Source: Bacteroidaceae bacterium
GTDB lineage: Bacteria > Bacteroidota > Bacteroidia > Bacteroidales > Bacteroidaceae
Direction: 5' to 3'
Assembly (NCBI GenBank): GCA_024401275.1
Contig: JAKSLJ010000029.1
Span: 1 to 46,565 of the forward strand
Length of the DNA stretch: 46,565 nucleotides
The position numbers were made by a program, and so were the translations under genes. The stretch's first letter is position 1; each line of letters begins with the position of its first letter. Positions 15,944 to 28,812 of the stretch are shown piece by piece. The notes under the pieces were generated by a model. That model was given only the letters and a program-made list of their open reading frames with translations, had not been told where the DNA came from and did not search any database.

Positions 15944-16018
15944 TGGAGGTGCGTTGCGGAGTCGAACCGCACTAACTGGTTTTGCAGACCAGGGACTAAA
16001 CCGCTCATCCAACGCACC
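15944..16018 (-). tRNA. tRNA-Cys (GCA)
   Basis: A cloverleaf can be folded on the minus strand. The acceptor is GGTGCGT/ACGCACC with discriminator T and encoded CCA, and there is a short D stem. The anticodon stem is CTGGT/ACCAG with loop CTGCAAA, giving anticodon GCA. The T arm is TGCGG-TTCGACT-CCGCA. It stands alone, with its own promoter and terminator. Confidence 0.96.
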
Positions 16019-16025
16019 AACTTTC

Positions 16026-16047
16026 GTTTTTGCGGGTGCAAAGGTAC
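16026..16047 (-). promoter_or_regulatory. tRNA-Cys promoter region, identical over 22 bp to the CRISPR repeat
   Basis: The minus strand carries TACCTTTG (16046-16039) about 20 nt before the mature tRNA 5' end. The whole 22 bp from 16026 to 16047 is identical to positions 4-25 of the 47-bp CRISPR repeat (27073 onward). No exact TTTG lies 19 nt upstream of the -7 box. Confidence 0.8.
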
Positions 16048-17321: not shown

Positions 17322-17372
17322 TAGAATATAATGTTTTTCATTCCTGTCTGGCTTTTGGTGGCTAAGACGCGG

Positions 17373-17403
17373 CAAAGTTACATATTTCCAGGCAATTCAC
17401 AAA
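17373..17403 (-). promoter_or_regulatory. Consensus promoter for the 208-aa hypothetical gene
   Basis: On the minus strand, TTTG (17403-17400), exactly 19 nt, TAACTTTG (17380-17373). The predicted start is near 17367, about 46 nt before the ATG at 17321. Confidence 0.85.
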
Positions 17404-17419
17404 CATGCAAGACATTTTT

Positions 17420-20984: not shown

Positions 20985-21041
20985 CGGAAAAAACTGCGAG
21001 AACTTGATTTCTGAAGGAAAAGAGAGGATAGGGTATGGACA

Positions 21042-21121
21042 TTAAAAATGCCACCGTTAAGGACGATGGCAACCTAATGTTTTCACAACGGAATAATCCT
21101 TATTGTGAATTGCTTAGAAAT
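21042..21121 (-). ncRNA. tracrRNA of the type II-C CRISPR system
   Basis: About 80 nt transcribed leftward, away from cas9. The first part is the anti-repeat: 20 nt (21122-21103) exactly complementary to nucleotides 2-21 of the CRISPR repeat in crRNA orientation. It is followed by a short GGATTATTCC nexus-type hairpin (about 21100-21091) and a terminator hairpin TGCCA-C-CGT/ACG-A-TGGCA (21071-21049) with a run of five T. The predicted start (near 21121) coincides with the edge of the anti-repeat, so no leader precedes it. It pairs with crRNA for Cas9 loading. Confidence 0.92.
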
Positions 21122-21126
21122 TGCTG

Positions 21127-21158
21127 CAAAATTAGTGTATTTGAACGAAATACACAAA
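21127..21158 (-). promoter_or_regulatory. tracrRNA promoter
   Basis: On the minus strand, TTTG (21158-21155), 20 nt, TAATTTTG (21134-21127). The -7 box lies 5 nt before the anti-repeat. Confidence 0.85.
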
Positions 21159-21238: not shown

Positions 21239-24200
21239 ATGAAAAAGATTATCGGTTTAGACTTAGGAACAAACAGTATTGGTTGGAGTGTAATCAACTC
21301 CACAGACGACAATATTCTCACAGGAATAGACGACGCAAATAGCCGCATCATTCCTATGACCGCAGATATTCTTGGAAATTTTGAAGCGGGAAATTCCGTT
21401 TCACAGACAGAAACCCGCACAATGAAGCGCGGTGCTCGCAGACTTCGTGAGCGTTTCCTTCTTCGCCGCGAGCGTTTGCTTCGCATTCTCAATCATTTGA
21501 ATTTCCTGCCATCTCATTTCGCAAAAGAACTTGACCGTTACGGCAAGTTCAATAAGGACTCTGAGCCTAAGATTGCCTGGAACAAAGAACAAGGTAAAAA
21601 CCAATTCCTCTTTATGGATAGTTTCCTGGAAATGGTGGATGATTTCGGCAAAGCGAATCCTTCATTAATTGAAGGCGGAAAACTCGTACCATACGATTGG
21701 ACATTATATTACCTACGAAAGAAAGCGCTTACTCAAAAGATTTCAAGGGAAGAACTTGCTTGGGTTCTGCTCAGTTTCCTTCAAAAGCGCGGATACTCGC
21801 AGGTTGCAGGGTTGGACGAAACTCTGGAGGAAGAGAAGCAACCGAAATCAAGAGAGTACTTCCACAAAGGCAAAATCATGAGTATTACAGATACGGGGCA
21901 AGAGTTCAAGAAGAACAAAATCTTCCTCGTAGCGCTTGCCGATGGTCTTAAAGGTAAGCTCTTCCGAAGAGAGAAACCTGACTGGGAGGGCGAGACAAAA
22001 GACATCATCGTTACCGTCGCATTGAAAGACGGCAAGGAACGCATGGACGAAAGTCTCAACATTCCGGATTGCAAGTTCAAGATTCCGACAGAAGCAGAGT
22101 GGAACGAGAAGTGGGAATTGGTAAAGAAACGCACACAGAACGACATCTCGGGCAGTGGCAAAACCGTCGGCTCTTACATTTACGATGCCATTCTTGAGAA
22201 TCCGTCGCAGAAGATTATCGGGAAACTTGTTAGAGTTGTTGACCGAGAGTTTTACTATGACGAACTACATCGCATACTGAAAGCACAATGCGACTTCCAT
22301 TCAGAGCTGCAAGACAGAAATCTTTACGAAGAGTGTATTTCCCTTCTCTATCCAACAAACGAAGCTTATCGCAAAAGCATTGAAGGCAGAAACTTCGAGT
22401 ATCTCATTGCCGACGACATCATCCTCTACCAACGCCCTCTGAAGACAAAGAAGTCCCTTATAGCCAACTGCCAATACGAAACCATGAAAGGCGTTGACGG
22501 CAAGCAATATGGGCTGAAATGTATAGCAAAATCTCATCCGCTATTTGAGGAATTCCGTCTGTGGCAATGGATAGCAAACCTCCGCATATTCAAGCGTGAA
22601 GATACTGTTGACGGAAAACTGACCATAGACCACGACATAACCGGCAATCTGCTTCCTAACAAGGATGCTTACGCTGAGCTGTTCGAATGGCTTAGCCACA
22701 AGGCTGATATTTCAATGGAAAACCTTCTTTCCTTCCCTGGTTTCAATCTGGAAAAGAGAAAGAGGGAGAAACTTGGCGCGCAGTATCGTTGGAACTATGT
22801 CGAGGATAAGTCTTTCCCTTGCTGCACAACAAGGGCTAAGATTGCAGACCGTCTGGACAAACTCAATATCAGCGAAGAGGTTCTAACGGACAGCCTCCTT
22901 GATAATCTATGGCAGATTCTTTACTCTGTTTCTAAGAAATCGGAGTTGGAAACTGCCATGAGGACTTTCTGCTTGAAGAATTTCCCACAGACAGACGCAG
23001 AAGAGTTTGCCAAAGTATTCTCGAGATTCCCTTCTTTTGACAAAGACTATGGCTCATATTCTGCCAAGGCTATCAAAAAACTTCTTCCACTCATGCGCAT
23101 GGGCAAATACTGGAATGCGGATACCATTGACAGCAACACTAAAGACCGCATACAGAAGATCATTGACGGAGAATTTGACGAAAGCATACAGAACCGCGTT
23201 CGTAAGAAGACCATAAAGCTCAATCAGGAAGAAGATTTCCAAGGTCTTCCTGTATGGCTTGCATGCTATGTCGTTTACAATCGCCACAGCGAGGCAGGAG
23301 AAGTACAGCGATGGGAGAAGCCGGAAGACATTGACGCTTTCATCAAGACTTTCAAATCGCAGTCGCTTCATAACCCTATCGTTGAGCAGATTACTCTCGA
23401 AACGCTCAAGACCGTCCGCGACATCTGGGCTACATACGGAAAGCCGAGCGAAATACACATTGAACTTGGTCGCGAACTGAAGAAGACGAACAAGGAAAAG
23501 GAACGCATCATGCGCCAAAACGCAAAGAATGAGATTGCCAATCTTCGCGCTAAGGCGATGCTCTTGGAACTTGCAAATCCGGATATGCATGTGGACAATG
23601 TGCGCCCATATTCGCCTTCTCAGCAGGAGCTCTATCGCATTTACGAAGATGGTGTGCTGAACGATTCTGACATCGTTATTCCTGACTATATTACGGAAAC
23701 CTTAAAGAAATACGAACAGTCAGACCGAGCAAAATGGCCTACTCATTCTGAAATCATAAAGTATAAGTGCTGGCTTGAGCAGAACTACCGCTCCCCATAC
23801 ACAGGCAGAGTCATTCCGCTCTCCAAGCTGTTCACTCCAGCCTATCAGATAGAACATGTCATTCCGCAATCGCGCTATTTCGATGACTCCTTCTCAAACA
23901 AGGTCATCTGCGAAGAGGAAGTAAACCAGCTGAAGGATTCGCAGCTCGGCTATGAGTTCATCAAGAACCATCACGGTCAGAAACTCTCTGGCGGCATTGA
24001 GATTTTCAGCATTGAAGCTTACGAGGAGTTCGTCAAGAAGCACTATGGAAATGATAAGCGTAAGATGACGAATCTTCTGCTTGAAGATATTCCGGAAAAG
24101 TTCATCGCGCGCCAGATGAACGACAGCCGCTACATCAGCAAGCTCATCTCAAACCTCCTGTCAAACATCGTTCGCGAAAAGGACGAGGACGGTGTTGTTT

Positions 24201-25732
24201 CCAAGAATGTCATTGCCGTCAATGGAAATGTAACCACACAGTTAAAGCGCGACTGGGGCATGAACGATGTTTGGAATCGCATCATTCTCCCTCGTTTCCA
24301 GAGAATGGAGGAGATAGACAGCGAACACAAGTACACTGCACTCTCTCGCGAAGGTCATCTCATTCCGCAGATGCCTATCCACATGAAACTGGAGAAGAAG
24401 CGCATAGACCATCGCCACCATGCTATGGATGCCATTGTCATAGCATGCTGTACACGCAGCCATGTCAACCTGCTCAGCAACGAGGCAGCAAAGTCTGGCA
24501 CTCGCTACGACCTTCAGCACAAACTCCGCGAGCACAGGATGGTAATTGTAAACGGCAGGGAGCGCAATGATTTTGGTGCATTCCTCAAACCTTGGGCTAC
24601 ATTCACTGAAGATGCCCAGCAAGTTCTTGAAAATGCCATCGTCAGCTTCAAGCAAGTAAACCGTATCCTTAACCGCACTTCAAACTACTATCAGCACTTC
24701 GTAGAGAAAGCTGATGGCAAGATGAAGAAGGAACTCGTTAAGCAGGAGAAGGGCGACCGCATGGCAATACGCAAGTCTCTGCATAAAGAGTCTGTTTATG
24801 GTCATGTCAATCTGCGCCGCATAAAAGAAGTTGCTCTTAAAGTTGCTCTCACTCGTGCAGCAGACATCGTTGACCGCGATATTCGTGATGCCATCACTCT
24901 TATGCTTGCTGAAGGCAAGAAACTCAAGGACATCAAGGCTTTCTTTGAGAAGGATAAGGACACCTGGGCAGACTTCAACGAGAAAAAGATTCCTATCTTC
25001 TATTTCTCTGATGAGGAAGACAAGAAATGCTATGCCATCCGAACTGCCATCGACGAAAGTTTCAACGAGAAGACCATACGCGAACAAGTCACAGATCTTG
25101 GCATTCAGGCTATCATGCTTCGACACCTTGCCAATCACGATGGCAAGCCAGCCGAGGCATTCTCTCCAGAAGGCATTGAGGAGATGAACCGCAACATCGT
25201 TGCTCTCAATGGTGGCAAGCAGCATAAACCAATCTATAAAGTTCGCAAGTACGAGAAAGCGCAGAAGTTTGCTGTCGGCGAAAGCGGAAACAAGAAGACC
25301 AAGTTCGTAGAGGGCGACAAGGGCAAGAATCTCTTCTTTGCAATATATGCTGACGAGGAAGGCAAGCGAGCTTTTGAAACTATCTCACTCATAGATGTCA
25401 TACATCGCATGAAAGAAGGACTGCCAGCCGTTCCTGAAGAAAGTGAAGGAAAGAAGCTACTTTTCTATCTTGAAGTGAACGACCTTGTCTATATTCCACG
25501 AGAAGAGGAAAAGGACAACATTGATTGGAACAATATTGACAAAACGAGGATTTACAAGTTTGTAAGTTGTGATAAAAAGGATGCTTATTTCATGCCTTGT
25601 CACTTTGCTAGTGCTATCGTAAACAAAGTTGAACTCGGTCCACTCAATAAGATTCTATCATTTAACGGACAGACAATTAAAAATACTTGTTTTCCATTCA
25701 AGGTTAATCGTTTAGGAATCATTCAGCCATGA
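21239..25732 (+). CDS. cas9: Type II-C CRISPR endonuclease Cas9 (large Bacteroidota form)
   Basis: A 1497-residue RNA-guided nuclease, large for type II-C and typical of Bacteroidota. RuvC-I is IIGLDLGTNSIGW with Asp8. The arginine-rich bridge helix is MKRGARRLRERFLLRRERLL. RuvC-II is IHIELGRE with Glu742. The HNH domain has YQIEHVIPQS with His873, and Asn887 and Asn896 in the usual later places. RuvC-III is DHRHHAMDAIVIA with His1061 and Asp1064. All nuclease residues are present, so both strands should be cut. The C-terminal 400 residues should hold the PAM-reading part; the PAM cannot be deduced. Its stop overlaps the cas1 start (ATGA). Confidence 0.97.
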   Translation: MKKIIGLDLGTNSIGWSVINSTDDNILTGIDDANSRIIPMTADILGNFEAGNSVSQTETRTMKRGARRLRERFLLRRERLLRILNHLNFLPSHFAKELDRYGKFNKDSEPKIAWNKEQGKNQFLFMDSFLEMVDDFGKANPSLIEGGKLVPYDWTLYYLRKKALTQKISREELAWVLLSFLQKRGYSQVAGLDETLEEEKQPKSREYFHKGKIMSITDTGQEFKKNKIFLVALADGLKGKLFRREKPDWEGETKDIIVTVALKDGKERMDESLNIPDCKFKIPTEAEWNEKWELVKKRTQNDISGSGKTVGSYIYDAILENPSQKIIGKLVRVVDREFYYDELHRILKAQCDFHSELQDRNLYEECISLLYPTNEAYRKSIEGRNFEYLIADDIILYQRPLKTKKSLIANCQYETMKGVDGKQYGLKCIAKSHPLFEEFRLWQWIANLRIFKREDTVDGKLTIDHDITGNLLPNKDAYAELFEWLSHKADISMENLLSFPGFNLEKRKREKLGAQYRWNYVEDKSFPCCTTRAKIADRLDKLNISEEVLTDSLLDNLWQILYSVSKKSELETAMRTFCLKNFPQTDAEEFAKVFSRFPSFDKDYGSYSAKAIKKLLPLMRMGKYWNADTIDSNTKDRIQKIIDGEFDESIQNRVRKKTIKLNQEEDFQGLPVWLACYVVYNRHSEAGEVQRWEKPEDIDAFIKTFKSQSLHNPIVEQITLETLKTVRDIWATYGKPSEIHIELGRELKKTNKEKERIMRQNAKNEIANLRAKAMLLELANPDMHVDNVRPYSPSQQELYRIYEDGVLNDSDIVIPDYITETLKKYEQSDRAKWPTHSEIIKYKCWLEQNYRSPYTGRVIPLSKLFTPAYQIEHVIPQSRYFDDSFSNKVICEEEVNQLKDSQLGYEFIKNHHGQKLSGGIEIFSIEAYEEFVKKHYGNDKRKMTNLLLEDIPEKFIARQMNDSRYISKLISNLLSNIVREKDEDGVVSKNVIAVNGNVTTQLKRDWGMNDVWNRIILPRFQRMEEIDSEHKYTALSREGHLIPQMPIHMKLEKKRIDHRHHAMDAIVIACCTRSHVNLLSNEAAKSGTRYDLQHKLREHRMVIVNGRERNDFGAFLKPWATFTEDAQQVLENAIVSFKQVNRILNRTSNYYQHFVEKADGKMKKELVKQEKGDRMAIRKSLHKESVYGHVNLRRIKEVALKVALTRAADIVDRDIRDAITLMLAEGKKLKDIKAFFEKDKDTWADFNEKKIPIFYFSDEEDKKCYAIRTAIDESFNEKTIREQVTDLGIQAIMLRHLANHDGKPAEAFSPEGIEEMNRNIVALNGGKQHKPIYKVRKYEKAQKFAVGESGNKKTKFVEGDKGKNLFFAIYADEEGKRAFETISLIDVIHRMKEGLPAVPEESEGKKLLFYLEVNDLVYIPREEEKDNIDWNNIDKTRIYKFVSCDKKDAYFMPCHFASAIVNKVELGPLNKILSFNGQTIKNTCFPFKVNRLGIIQP

Positions 25733-26637
25733 TAAAGAAGACACTTGCATTTGGCAATCCTGCCTATTTATCTCTCCGCGACCAGCAACTTGTCATCAAA
25801 TTCCCAGAGAAAGACAACAAGCCAGAGCGAACAATACCGATAGAGGACATCGGAGTAATCATCCTTGAGAATAAGCAGATTACTATTACGCATGGACTCA
25901 TATCGGCACTGGTAGATAACAACTGTGCTCTTATAACCTGCGACAACAACCAGCTACCTTCTGGTTTGATGATGCCACTATCGGTAAACACCGTTCAAAG
26001 TGAACGTTTCCATGACCAGATAACGGCTTCGCAACCACTGAAGAAACAGCTGTGGCAGCAAACTGTTCAATGCAAGATTCGCAATCAGGCTGCTGTGTTA
26101 CGAAAGATACATGGTCTGCCATGCAAGAACATGGCGGCATGGGCAAACGATGTTCGTAGCGGTGATGCTGACAATAAGGAGGCAAGAGCTGCTGCTTACT
26201 ATTGGAAGAACATGTTTCCTGACATTACAGCCTTCACTCGCGATCAGTTTGGAGAAGCACCTAATAACCTGCTGAACTATGGCTATGCCATACTGCGTGC
26301 AGTGGTTGCCCGTGCTCTCGTTTCAAGCGGAATGCTCCCAACCCTTGGCATCCATCATCATAATCGATACAATGCCTATTGTCTTGCCGATGACATTATG
26401 GAGCCATATCGTCCGTATGTTGATATGATAGTCCATCGCATCCATAGTAGTGGAATAAATTGTGAGCAGATGAATACAGAAATCAAACGCATGCTTCTGC
26501 AAATACCCACCACAGATGTAACTATAGAAGGCAAGCGAAGTCCACTGATGGTAGCTGTTTCTACAACAACATCCTCTCTATATAAGTGCTATTCAGGTGA
26601 ACTGCGCAAGATTCTTTATCCAGAAATAAGCGTATGA
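25729..26637 (+). CDS. cas1: Type II CRISPR integrase Cas1
   Basis: A 302-residue Cas1. The N-terminal beta domain (IPIEDIGVIILENKQITIT, then LVDNNCALITCDNNQLPSGLMMPL) is followed by the helical catalytic domain with LNYGYAILRAVVARALVSSGMLPTLGIHHHN and ADDIMEPYRPYVD, which supply the expected His and Glu metal ligands. Cas1 with Cas2 inserts new spacers. ATG overlaps the cas9 stop by 4 bp and its own stop overlaps cas2, so the three genes form one coupled operon. There is no csn2 or cas4, which fits subtype II-C. Confidence 0.96.
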   Translation: MIKKTLAFGNPAYLSLRDQQLVIKFPEKDNKPERTIPIEDIGVIILENKQITITHGLISALVDNNCALITCDNNQLPSGLMMPLSVNTVQSERFHDQITASQPLKKQLWQQTVQCKIRNQAAVLRKIHGLPCKNMAAWANDVRSGDADNKEARAAAYYWKNMFPDITAFTRDQFGEAPNNLLNYGYAILRAVVARALVSSGMLPTLGIHHHNRYNAYCLADDIMEPYRPYVDMIVHRIHSSGINCEQMNTEIKRMLLQIPTTDVTIEGKRSPLMVAVSTTTSSLYKCYSGELRKILYPEISV

Positions 26638-26975
26638 TAAGTGGCGAACGATTTTCCGAATATAGAGTTATGTGGGTTGTTGTATTCTTTGATTTGCCGG
26701 TTGACACGAAGAAAGCACGTCGCGAAGCAGCTCTCTTCAGAAAGAATCTTCTGAGAGATGGTTTCACCATGATGCAGTTTTCCATCTATGTGCGACATTG
26801 TGCAAGTAGTGAGAATGCTGCCGTACATACAAAACGCGTAAAGAACCTACTGCCAGAATACGGAAATGTCGTAATCTTCACCCTTACAGACAAACAATTT
26901 GCTCAGATGGAAGTCTTCTCCAGCAAACAGCAGAAAGAAAACAAATCTTACGGAGTACAATTAGAATTATTCTAA
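26634..26975 (+). CDS. cas2: CRISPR-associated Cas2
   Basis: A 113-residue Cas2 beginning MISGERFSEYRVMWVVVFFDLPV. It has the ferredoxin-like fold start with the conserved Asp in VVFFDLP, then FRKNLLRDGFTMMQFSIYVRHC and VVIFTLTDKQF. It forms the dimeric core of the Cas1-Cas2 integration complex. It is the last gene of the operon, followed 15 nt later by a hairpin terminator and then the array. Confidence 0.96.
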   Translation: MISGERFSEYRVMWVVVFFDLPVDTKKARREAALFRKNLLRDGFTMMQFSIYVRHCASSENAAVHTKRVKNLLPEYGNVVIFTLTDKQFAQMEVFSSKQQKENKSYGVQLELF

Positions 26976-26990
26976 ATCCCTATACCCAGC

Positions 26991-27021
26991 AAAAATGCCC
27001 GCCAAAAGGCGAGCATTTTTT
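26991..27021 (+). terminator. Terminator of the cas operon
   Basis: AAAAATGC-C-GCC / GGC-G-AGCATTTTTT: a hairpin with a GC-rich stem flanked by A and T runs, so it can stop the cas mRNA rightward and also transcripts arriving leftward from the array. Confidence 0.88.
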
Positions 27022-27072
27022 AATTCTAAATCCTTTGCAAGTACCTAAATATCACCTCATTACAGTAAGTCG

Positions 27073-28649
27073 GTTGTTTTTGCGGGTGCAAAGGTACGAA
27101 TTTCTAAGCAATTCACAACCTAAGTTGAACCGCTACGACAAGTCCCCTAGTTGTTTTTGCGGGTGCAAAGGTACGAATTTCTAAGCAATTCACAACAGTT
27201 TCTCAAGCCAGTTGTTCTTGGCGGTGGTTGTTTTTGCGGGTGCAAAGGTACGAATTTCTAAGCAATTCACAACGAGAAGGGATGATACTTGATATTGCAG
27301 TCGGTTGTTTTTGCGGGTGCAAAGGTACGAATTTCTAAGCAATTCACAACATGTTTGATGGTAGCCAGTATGACCGTATAGTTGTTTTTGCGGGTGCAAA
27401 GGTACGAATTTCTAAGCAATTCACAACACAACTGAGAAGACAATATCGCCGACTTTGTTGTTTTTGCGGGTGCAAAGGTACGAATTTCTAAGCAATTCAC
27501 AACAGCCTTGTGAGTGGTAACCTGGTTAATGTGTTGTTTTTGCGGGTGCAAAGGTACGAATTTCTAAGCAATTCACAACCAGATGAAAAGATGGCTAACA
27601 GTTCTTCAGTTGTTTTTGCGGGTGCAAAGGTACGAATTTCTAAGCAATTCACAACATACTTATATTGGTCAAGATGATGATATTGTTGTTTTTGCGGGTG
27701 CAAAGGTACGAATTTCTAAGCAATTCACAACCACTGTTTGCGCCGTTTGCTACTTTGCCGGTTGTTTTTGCGGGTGCAAAGGTACGAATTTCTAAGCAAT
27801 TCACAACAAAAAAACTTTTCATAGTTTGAACGAGTTTGTTGTTTTTGCGGGTGCAAAGGTACGAATTTCTAAGCAATTCACAACCATAACGAGAAGAAGG
27901 AATTGAGTTGTTGAGTTGTTTTTGCGGGTGCAAAGGTACGAATTTCTAAGCAATTCACAACCTAATTATGTGTAAATTAACTAATGGTGCTGTTGTTTTT
28001 GCGGGTGCAAAGGTACGAATTTCTAAGCAATTCACAACATTTATCGATATCTTGACCTCTCTTTTGCGTTGTTTTTGCGGGTGCAAAGGTACGAATTTCT
28101 AAGCAATTCACAACAATAGCTCCGAGGTTACTAATCTTGGCGAGTTGTTTTTGCGGGTGCAAAGGTACGAATTTCTAAGCAATTCACAACATTTGGTTTG
28201 AAGCTTGACCCCAGCCGCCGTTGTTTTTGCGGGTGCAAAGGTACGAATTTCTAAGCAATTCACAACTTGCAACACTAACTGTAGGTAACTTATCTAGTTG
28301 TTTTTGCGGGTGCAAAGGTACGAATTTCTAAGCAATTCACAACTAGATGAGGATTATACAACAGAAGGTCAAGGTTGTTTTTGCGGGTGCAAAGGTACGA
28401 ATTTCTAAGCAATTCACAACGTTGGAAGCGACAAGGTAACACTCTGCCGGTTGTTTTTGCGGGTGCAAAGGTACGAATTTCTAAGCAATTCACAACAGGA
28501 GCATGGCGATGGCTGCGATGACGATGTTGTTTTTGCGGGTGCAAAGGTACGAATTTCTAAGCAATTCACAACGAACAGCACCGGCGTAGTATTACCAAAC
28601 GGTTGTTTTTGCGGGTGCAAAGGTACGAATTTCCAAGCAATTCACAAAC
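27073..28649 (-). CRISPR. Type II-C CRISPR array, 21 repeats and 20 spacers, transcribed leftward
   Basis: Twenty-one 47-bp repeats (first 27073-27119) separated by 20 spacers of 29 or 30 bp. The first 20 repeats look identical; the last (28602-28649) has a T-to-C change and an extra A near its end. Read on the minus strand, each repeat starts GTTGTGAATTGC, complementary to the tracrRNA, which sets the crRNA direction. Each repeat also has TTG at positions 2-4, 19 nt, then TACCTTTG, a full promoter. All spacers look unique. The flank 27022-27072 is AT-rich and next to cas2; the right flank 28650-28800 has no obvious gene. Confidence 0.98.
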
Positions 28650-28812
28650 ATACAAGAGAATTATTGTTTGTTTGCTGTGATCTTCCAAGGTTCTTTAACT
28701 CACAGAGATGTGTAAAAATGGTCCTGACAAAGGTGATATAATCCGTTTGACCTGGTGTTATATTCTGTATTCTTCGGTCTAAGAATTCATCTCCTTTGGT
28801 GAAACAGTTCAT

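Follow-up and report, generated by a model that had tools for sequence, protein, structure and literature searches.

Type II-C CRISPR–Cas systems are known to take in new spacers at the 3′ end of transcription, so that a promoter in the leader would face away from what it should read. How, then, is each spacer expressed? This question is raised by a CRISPR array in the window analyzed here, a 46,565-nt stretch of the Bacteroidaceae contig JAKSLJ010000029.1, for which an earlier note had proposed that every repeat carries a complete promoter of the Bacteroidota kind. From the comparisons below, we conclude that the locus is very probably a type II-C array whose repeats double as sigma-ABfr promoters, each serving the next spacer.

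Architecture and polarity of the locus

Three cas genes lie on the plus strand and overlap end to end: cas9 (21239..25732, 1,497 aa), cas1 (25729..26637, type II family TIGR03639) and cas2 (26634..26975). The array follows (27073..28650), with no further cas gene between it and cas9, and comprises 21 repeats of 47 nt and 20 spacers of 29 or 30 nt in minus-strand crRNA sense. The three-gene cas set together with the anti-repeat of a predicted tracrRNA points to type II-C. Judging by the relatives of the Cas9 and by the promoter type, the host would belong to the Bacteroidales. The probable tracrRNA (21040..21126, predicted ends) is encoded before cas9 on the minus strand and has a terminal hairpin and T-run. 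Its anti-repeat (21103..21122, minus strand) is a perfect 20-nt match to repeat positions 2–21, and its own promoter, TTG-N20-TAATTTTG (21127..21157, minus strand), leaves 4 nt between its end and the anti-repeat. Rfam gave zero matches in the window, so the tracrRNA call rests on pairing and folding. Because the tracrRNA pairs with the 5′ part of the repeat, the crRNA strand is the minus strand, which bears out the direction given in the earlier note. A search of the phage collection gave no match to the array, and a PAM therefore gives no confirmation of the strand.

Twenty of the 21 repeats are identical, and the single changed copy lies at the high-coordinate end (28604..28650, minus strand), where it is transcribed first. 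Its 5′ end is altered (TTTG for GTTG, and one A-to-G), and the promoter box described below is intact. Among 59 arrays, of which eight are truncated close to the 5′ end, 33 have an altered first copy (in crRNA sense) and one has an altered last copy (L046, altered at both ends). The altered 5′ copy in the window and in these 33 arrays places the entry of new spacers at the transcript's 3′ end; the polarity of the window's array would thus be that of II-C systems with repeat promoters. The newest repeat is then the one on the leader side (27073..27119, minus strand), whose putative promoter faces the leader, where the next spacer would go. In L046 (Prevotella ihumii), the array is inverted relative to the cas genes and lies several kb off; in its oldest copy, both nn letters have changed and TA and TTTG are kept.

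The leader between cas2 and the array (26976..27072) holds a hairpin with a T-run on both strands (26995..27022) that folds more strongly on the array's strand (−20 kcal/mol on minus, −15 on plus); it was found by folding, having been missed by a generic terminator scan. Hairpins with a T-run are present in 43 of 60 leaders on the array strand and in 35 of 60 on the cas strand, compared to 0 of 60 shuffled leaders. Of the 43 array-strand hairpins, 42 fall within +50 to +54 or +69 to +79 nt and the other is at +4. Hairpins at these two favoured distances from the array edge have stems of unlike sequence. The leader hairpin is probably a bidirectional terminator. It suits convergent transcription of the cas genes and the array and could also serve the cas genes alone; possibly it anchors spacer insertion as well.

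A promoter-like sequence in every repeat

The primary sigma factor of Bacteroidota is of the sigma-ABfr type, with a −33 TTTG and a −7 TAnnTTTG as promoter elements. On the minus strand, TTG-N19-TACCTTTG is present in 21/21 repeats, with TTG at repeat positions 2–4 and the box at positions 24–31, exactly as the earlier note had described. The box lies at 27089..27096 in the newest repeat, has an identical offset in all 21 repeats, ends 16 nt short of the repeat end and is entirely outside the tracrRNA-paired part; the 21 copies count as one observation, not 21. In the window, TTG-N19-TAnnTTTG occurs 23 times on the minus strand (21 of these are the repeats) and twice on the plus strand.

The repeat has the −7 TAnnTTTG of sigma-ABfr promoters. 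At −33, its TTG at N19 falls on one of two host spacing peaks (see below), yet the preceding base is G in 20 of the 21 repeats (GTTG), and TTTG is found only in the oldest repeat (28604–28650). In a 400-kb sample of the same genome, 17 of 24 native N19 sites have a T directly before the TTG. The −33 TTTG claimed for all repeats was therefore overstated. As judged from sequence, all 21 repeats hold a promoter-like element directed towards the next spacer. Promoter elements of this type are centred at −7 and −33 (PMC7366714), so the predicted start is about 12 nt before the spacer. The offset of about 10 nt in the earlier note was thus nearly right; its 21 start sites become 20, because repeat 27073–27119 points into the leader and 20 boxes precede a spacer.

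To compare the repeat with native promoters, 20 stretches of 20 kb (400 kb) were sampled from the same 3.2-Mb genome. TTG before TAnnTTTGC peaked at N19 (18 sites) and N20 (29 sites), together 47 of 146 sites, compared to a mean of 3.65 at 20 other gaps; TTG-N19-TAnnTTTG occurred 24 times in this sample, both strands combined. Across the whole genome, TTG-N17-22-TAnnTTTGCA was found 385 times, a count that takes in the 21 repeats, compared to 6 times for the motif in reversed reading. The repeat also agrees with the wider consensus of 57 native promoter sites, which have T at 15 and 3 nt and G at 1 nt before the box, followed after the box by CACCC and then A-rich sequence. Scored outside the fixed letters, repeat positions 22–47 exceeded all 57 native sites, all 20,000 random places and all 20,000 shuffles, and the whole repeat scored at the 84th percentile of the 57 native sites.

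The sequence TACCTTTGCACCCGCAAAAAC of the repeat recurs without a single difference in front of a tRNA-Cys gene 11 kb off. These 21 nt (16026..16046, minus strand), identical to repeat positions 24–44, stand 7 nt before tRNA-Cys (GCA; 15944..16018, minus strand) and are its probable promoter. Outside the array, 18 near-copies with at most three mismatches were found, compared to none in the reversed control. Nine of these lie 5–57 nt 5′ of a same-strand tRNA gene (Cys, Phe, Ser, Met, Val, Pro, His, Asn and Gln); of the other nine, one adjoins an abiF RNA, two are at contig ends and six are elsewhere. Given the tRNA-Cys identity and the near-copies before tRNA genes, the repeat appears to carry a promoter of the kind standing before many stable RNAs of the same cell. 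The abiF RNA on contig C26 of this genome (L122) adjoins a promoter-like sequence of the tRNA type.

A lone repeat-like promoter element (17372..17412, minus strand) precedes a 226-aa open reading frame without a Pfam match. It has TCTTGnATGTTTGTGAATTGCnTGGAAAT and 9 nt of 5′ flank in common with the oldest repeat, its box reads TAACTTTG, and it is either a stray repeat that came to serve as a promoter or the sequence from which the repeat's 5′ end was drawn. Another element, AAACGCAAACAAAC(AAAC)n, has seven exact copies in the window (16196, 17444 and 20981 on the minus strand; 29156, 31684, 31972 and 36425 on the plus strand) and three more in pieces L098 and L121.

The −7 box in relatives and in oldest repeats

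A Cas9 scan yielded a discovery set of 80 loci, mostly from Bacteroidota with some from Fibrobacter, and an array was found in 59 of these plus the window. We defined a strict box as TAnnTTTG 18–22 nt after TTG in crRNA sense. It was present in 38 of 54 distinct II-C repeats and in 0 of 54 on the antisense strand, compared to a mean of 0.21 and a maximum of 3 in 2,000 shuffles, a test that ignores common descent; among 33 representative repeats, it was present in 19. A second set, reached via Cas1 across the class, contained 36 repeats of GTTGTG type, of which 13 had the strict box (shuffle mean 0.15) and 27 had it with at most one mismatch (shuffle mean 2.4). The other 23 second-set repeats are without a strict box. 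Among the 33 representatives, strict boxes lie at repeat positions 23–27 and 14–18 nt from the repeat end. The box position therefore varies from both repeat ends, with no fixed ruler position. L049 and L037 have the box further along, at 31 and 32, N19 and N20 behind a second TTG at 9–11 (gap counted by hand). As a control, 23 arrays, of whatever type, found at the 30 Bacteroidia loci that best matched the type I-C cas1 family had TAnnTTTG on neither strand; their repeats are shorter (20–38 nt as found).

Sixteen of the 60 discovery arrays are likewise without a strict box, among them those of four Flavobacteriaceae (TATTTTTA and similar), two Fibrobacter, a Mucilaginibacter, a Niastella and L062. 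The TAnnTTTA variant of several Flavobacteriaceae repeats is not clearly enriched in the hosts (917 vs 806 in G008; 1,239 vs 1,116 in G010). For the two Fibrobacter arrays, a sigma-70 reading by eye (TTGTGA-N17-TACTTT or TAGTTT) is offered as a lead. Their tracrRNA promoters, also by eye, read TTGATT-N17-TATATT and TTGACC-N17-TATATT; counts of TTGACA-N16-18-TATAAT in Fibrobacter genomes are too few for a sigma-70 test.

A link between the box and the abundance of the motif in the host was strong in the discovery set, in which the strict box was found in 43 of 50 arrays where the host motif was enriched at least 1.4-fold and in 1 of 10 elsewhere. It failed in the second set (5/10 vs 10/28, p 0.47; 4/9 vs 9/27 with two hand-added repeats left out) and is no longer relied on. 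Enrichment as calculated here is a crude measure for AT-rich genomes, and samples of 0.25 to 0.4 Mb from three other hosts have too little power.

A TAnnTTTG box lies close to the tracrRNA anti-repeat in 42 of 54 loci. For 39 strict-box arrays with a clear anti-repeat, tracrRNA pairing ends before the repeat's box in 7, covers its first one to three letters in 27 and, in gapped alignments, crosses it in 5. Since pairing takes in the first letters in 27 of 39, TTTG, not TA, is free of pairing constraint; in relatives, TA may be held by tracrRNA pairing, and TTTG is not. At L060 (Niastella), which has many variant repeats, the anti-repeat is on the opposite strand relative to the other loci with a clear one.

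The oldest repeat has no spacer before it, no role in insertion and no need of tracrRNA pairing, and acting as promoter for the oldest spacer would therefore be its remaining function. Changes were counted in 36 arrays that combine a strict box with an altered terminal copy (28 from the discovery set and 8 from the second set). Such copies were recognized solely by the letters that follow the box, which makes the low change rate of this stretch uninformative. The box was intact in 33 of the 36. Its six fixed letters were changed in 4 of 216 cases, compared to 11 of 72 for nn (Fisher 7e-5) and 18 of 108 for the three bases before the box (1.8e-6); array by array, the box had changed at a lower rate than its neighbours in 14 arrays and at a higher rate in 1 (binomial p 0.001). 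In the second set alone, the box was separated from the three bases before it (p 0.04) and not from nn (2/48 vs 1/16). TTG, which in non-terminal repeats lies in the tracrRNA-paired part, was changed in 47 of 108 cases versus 200 of 624 for the remaining 5′ part. With TTG lost more readily than the bases around it, constraint in oldest repeats is visible in the −7 half only. The terminal-only count was used in place of a wider one that held 26 older repeats, two of them possibly due to chance (the second in L031 and the third in L058).

Individual copies have free letters swapped and fixed ones kept (TC to CA in L002, CC to AC in L026 and TC to AA in L046). Hybrid oldest copies with foreign sequence as far as the box occur in L016, L066, L078 and L162; since hybrids can be detected only through a retained 3′ end, the breakpoints did not serve as a test. 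In the L162 terminal repeat, a G+C-rich inverted repeat directly 5′ of the box replaces the 5′ half. The idea that the host's unusual promoter is built into the repeat, put forward in the earlier note, gains support from the native-promoter scoring, the conservation in relatives and the selective retention in oldest repeats, all of which point to a predicted promoter function.

Proposed expression route, alternatives and known systems

In the route that we infer, RNA polymerase with the primary sigma factor (sigma-ABfr type) would bind every repeat and start at about repeat position 35–36, 12 nt before the next spacer. The RNA would cross the spacer into the following repeat, positions 2–21 of which would pair with the tracrRNA, and Cas9 and RNase III would then trim the paired RNA. 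New spacers would join at the cas2-side end, that is, the 3′ end of transcription, each landing directly behind the promoter of the last repeat. Each stored spacer would then probably be readable by itself. What the sequence shows is the motif, its direction and conservation, the array's polarity, the leader hairpin and the retention in oldest repeats; polymerase binding, the start site and crRNA processing are predicted from these. If true, this route accounts for the entry of new spacers at the 3′ end of the transcript and provides a testable rule for the expression of every spacer in Bacteroidota II-C. It also implies that a Bacteroidota Cas9 array moved elsewhere would bring its own promoters, and it predicts the crRNA strand and 5′ end for II-C arrays, a subtype on which orientation tools disagree (PMC12638026).

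TAnnTTTG could instead be a motif by which Cas1–Cas2 measures repeat length at spacer insertion, its promoter likeness being accidental. Repeats do serve as integration substrates, and in the second set the box is about as frequent in hosts without clear motif enrichment as in hosts with it. A measuring motif would sit poorly with the variable distance of the box to both repeat ends, and the oldest repeat, far from the leader and past use in insertion, keeps the six letters while nn and the preceding bases change. The match in the window, moreover, goes beyond the box to take in the broader promoter consensus of the host and a tRNA promoter, and we regard this explanation as improbable. Less probable still, in our estimate, is a chance resemblance inherited with one repeat family, which we consider scarcely credible: the repeats share descent, which makes counts over them non-independent, but within single arrays the box is kept where nn or the preceding bases have changed (L002, L026, L046, L058, L047 and L028), and neither the exact 21-nt identity with the sequence upstream of a tRNA gene nor the 18 near-copies, with none reversed, fit with chance.

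Transcription of the whole array from a single promoter upstream of the oldest repeat, with internal boxes too weak to matter, is the mode of other CRISPR types, and candidate promoters do stand upstream of some arrays. L062, whose repeats are without the box and whose host has the highest motif enrichment among the 60 discovery arrays (ratio 10), has a complete TTG-N20-TACCTTTG 99 nt upstream of the array. L020 and L075 have CATCTTTG in the repeat and, at 77 and 46 nt upstream, a −7 box that lacks a TTG, and even the strict-box array L047 has TTG-N20-TATCTTTG 130 nt upstream. In the window, however, the 300 nt upstream of the array hold no TAnnTTTG. A box within 100 nt upstream that is not readable as a repeat remnant was found for 2 of 33 strict-box arrays versus 5 of 12 arrays without a strict box (Fisher 0.01), and the newest spacers would be at the far 3′ end of such a transcript. 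A single upstream promoter is thus very unlikely to account for the window's array. As to how repeats came to double as promoters, we can offer a tentative and rather doubtful suggestion, namely that in Bacteroidota, the II-C repeat was captured from among the host's stable-RNA promoters and has kept pace with the host since. The window's repeat would have acquired its exact core and first transcribed bases from one of the cell's tRNA promoters, the oldest repeat and its 5′ flank would share ancestry with the promoter of an unrelated gene 11 kb off, and lineages losing the box would compensate with an external promoter.

Repeat promoters as favoured here have precedents. In the II-C system of Campylobacter jejuni, a repeat-borne promoter for the next spacer was established by dRNA-seq and primer extension (Dugar 2013, PMC3656092), and repeat promoters of Neisseria are cited in PMC8092290, PMC10309648 and PMC5006608. 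The window's locus resembles that of C. jejuni in having a promoter per repeat (here read from the letters), a tracrRNA and only three Cas proteins (PMC3656092). C. jejuni uses an extended −10 at the repeat 3′ end and starts at spacer position five (PMC3656092), whereas the window's repeat has a Bacteroidota-type box in mid-repeat and a predicted start 12 nt before the spacer. For Flavobacterium columnare (Hoikkala 2021, PMC8092290) and F. psychrophilum CN46 (PMC10309648), a TTG 33 or 35 bp before each spacer was proposed as a repeat promoter, and transcription towards the leader was supported by eight reads and by RNA-seq, respectively. In the available portions of these two papers, TTG alone is named for the repeat and TAnnTTTG for the cas9 gene alone; the 36-nt repeat of L197, from the second set, likewise has no TAnnTTTG.

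When the printed Bacteroides fragilis II-C repeat (PMC9367070) is reverse complemented by hand, TTG-N19-TATCTTTG appears at the offset seen in the window, and the accessible text of PMC9367070 and PMC5704556 mentions no promoter in it. CRISPR1 of Riemerella anatipestifer (PMC5006608) has, as here, a 47-bp II-C repeat in a Bacteroidota host. In the open-licence PMC literature, as far as its accessible text goes, we found no paper naming a −7 box in a Bacteroidota CRISPR repeat.

A survey of 364 II-C arrays reported an altered oldest repeat in 60%, mostly in the first 15 nt (Microlife 2025, PMC12080349). Its authors read this 5′ decay as suppression of extraneous crRNA and state that repeats hold promoters. 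If the oldest repeat acts as proposed here, this would offer a reason for its decaying mainly in the 5′ part. The same 5′ decay is seen in our arrays, to which we add that the letters of the −7 box are kept.
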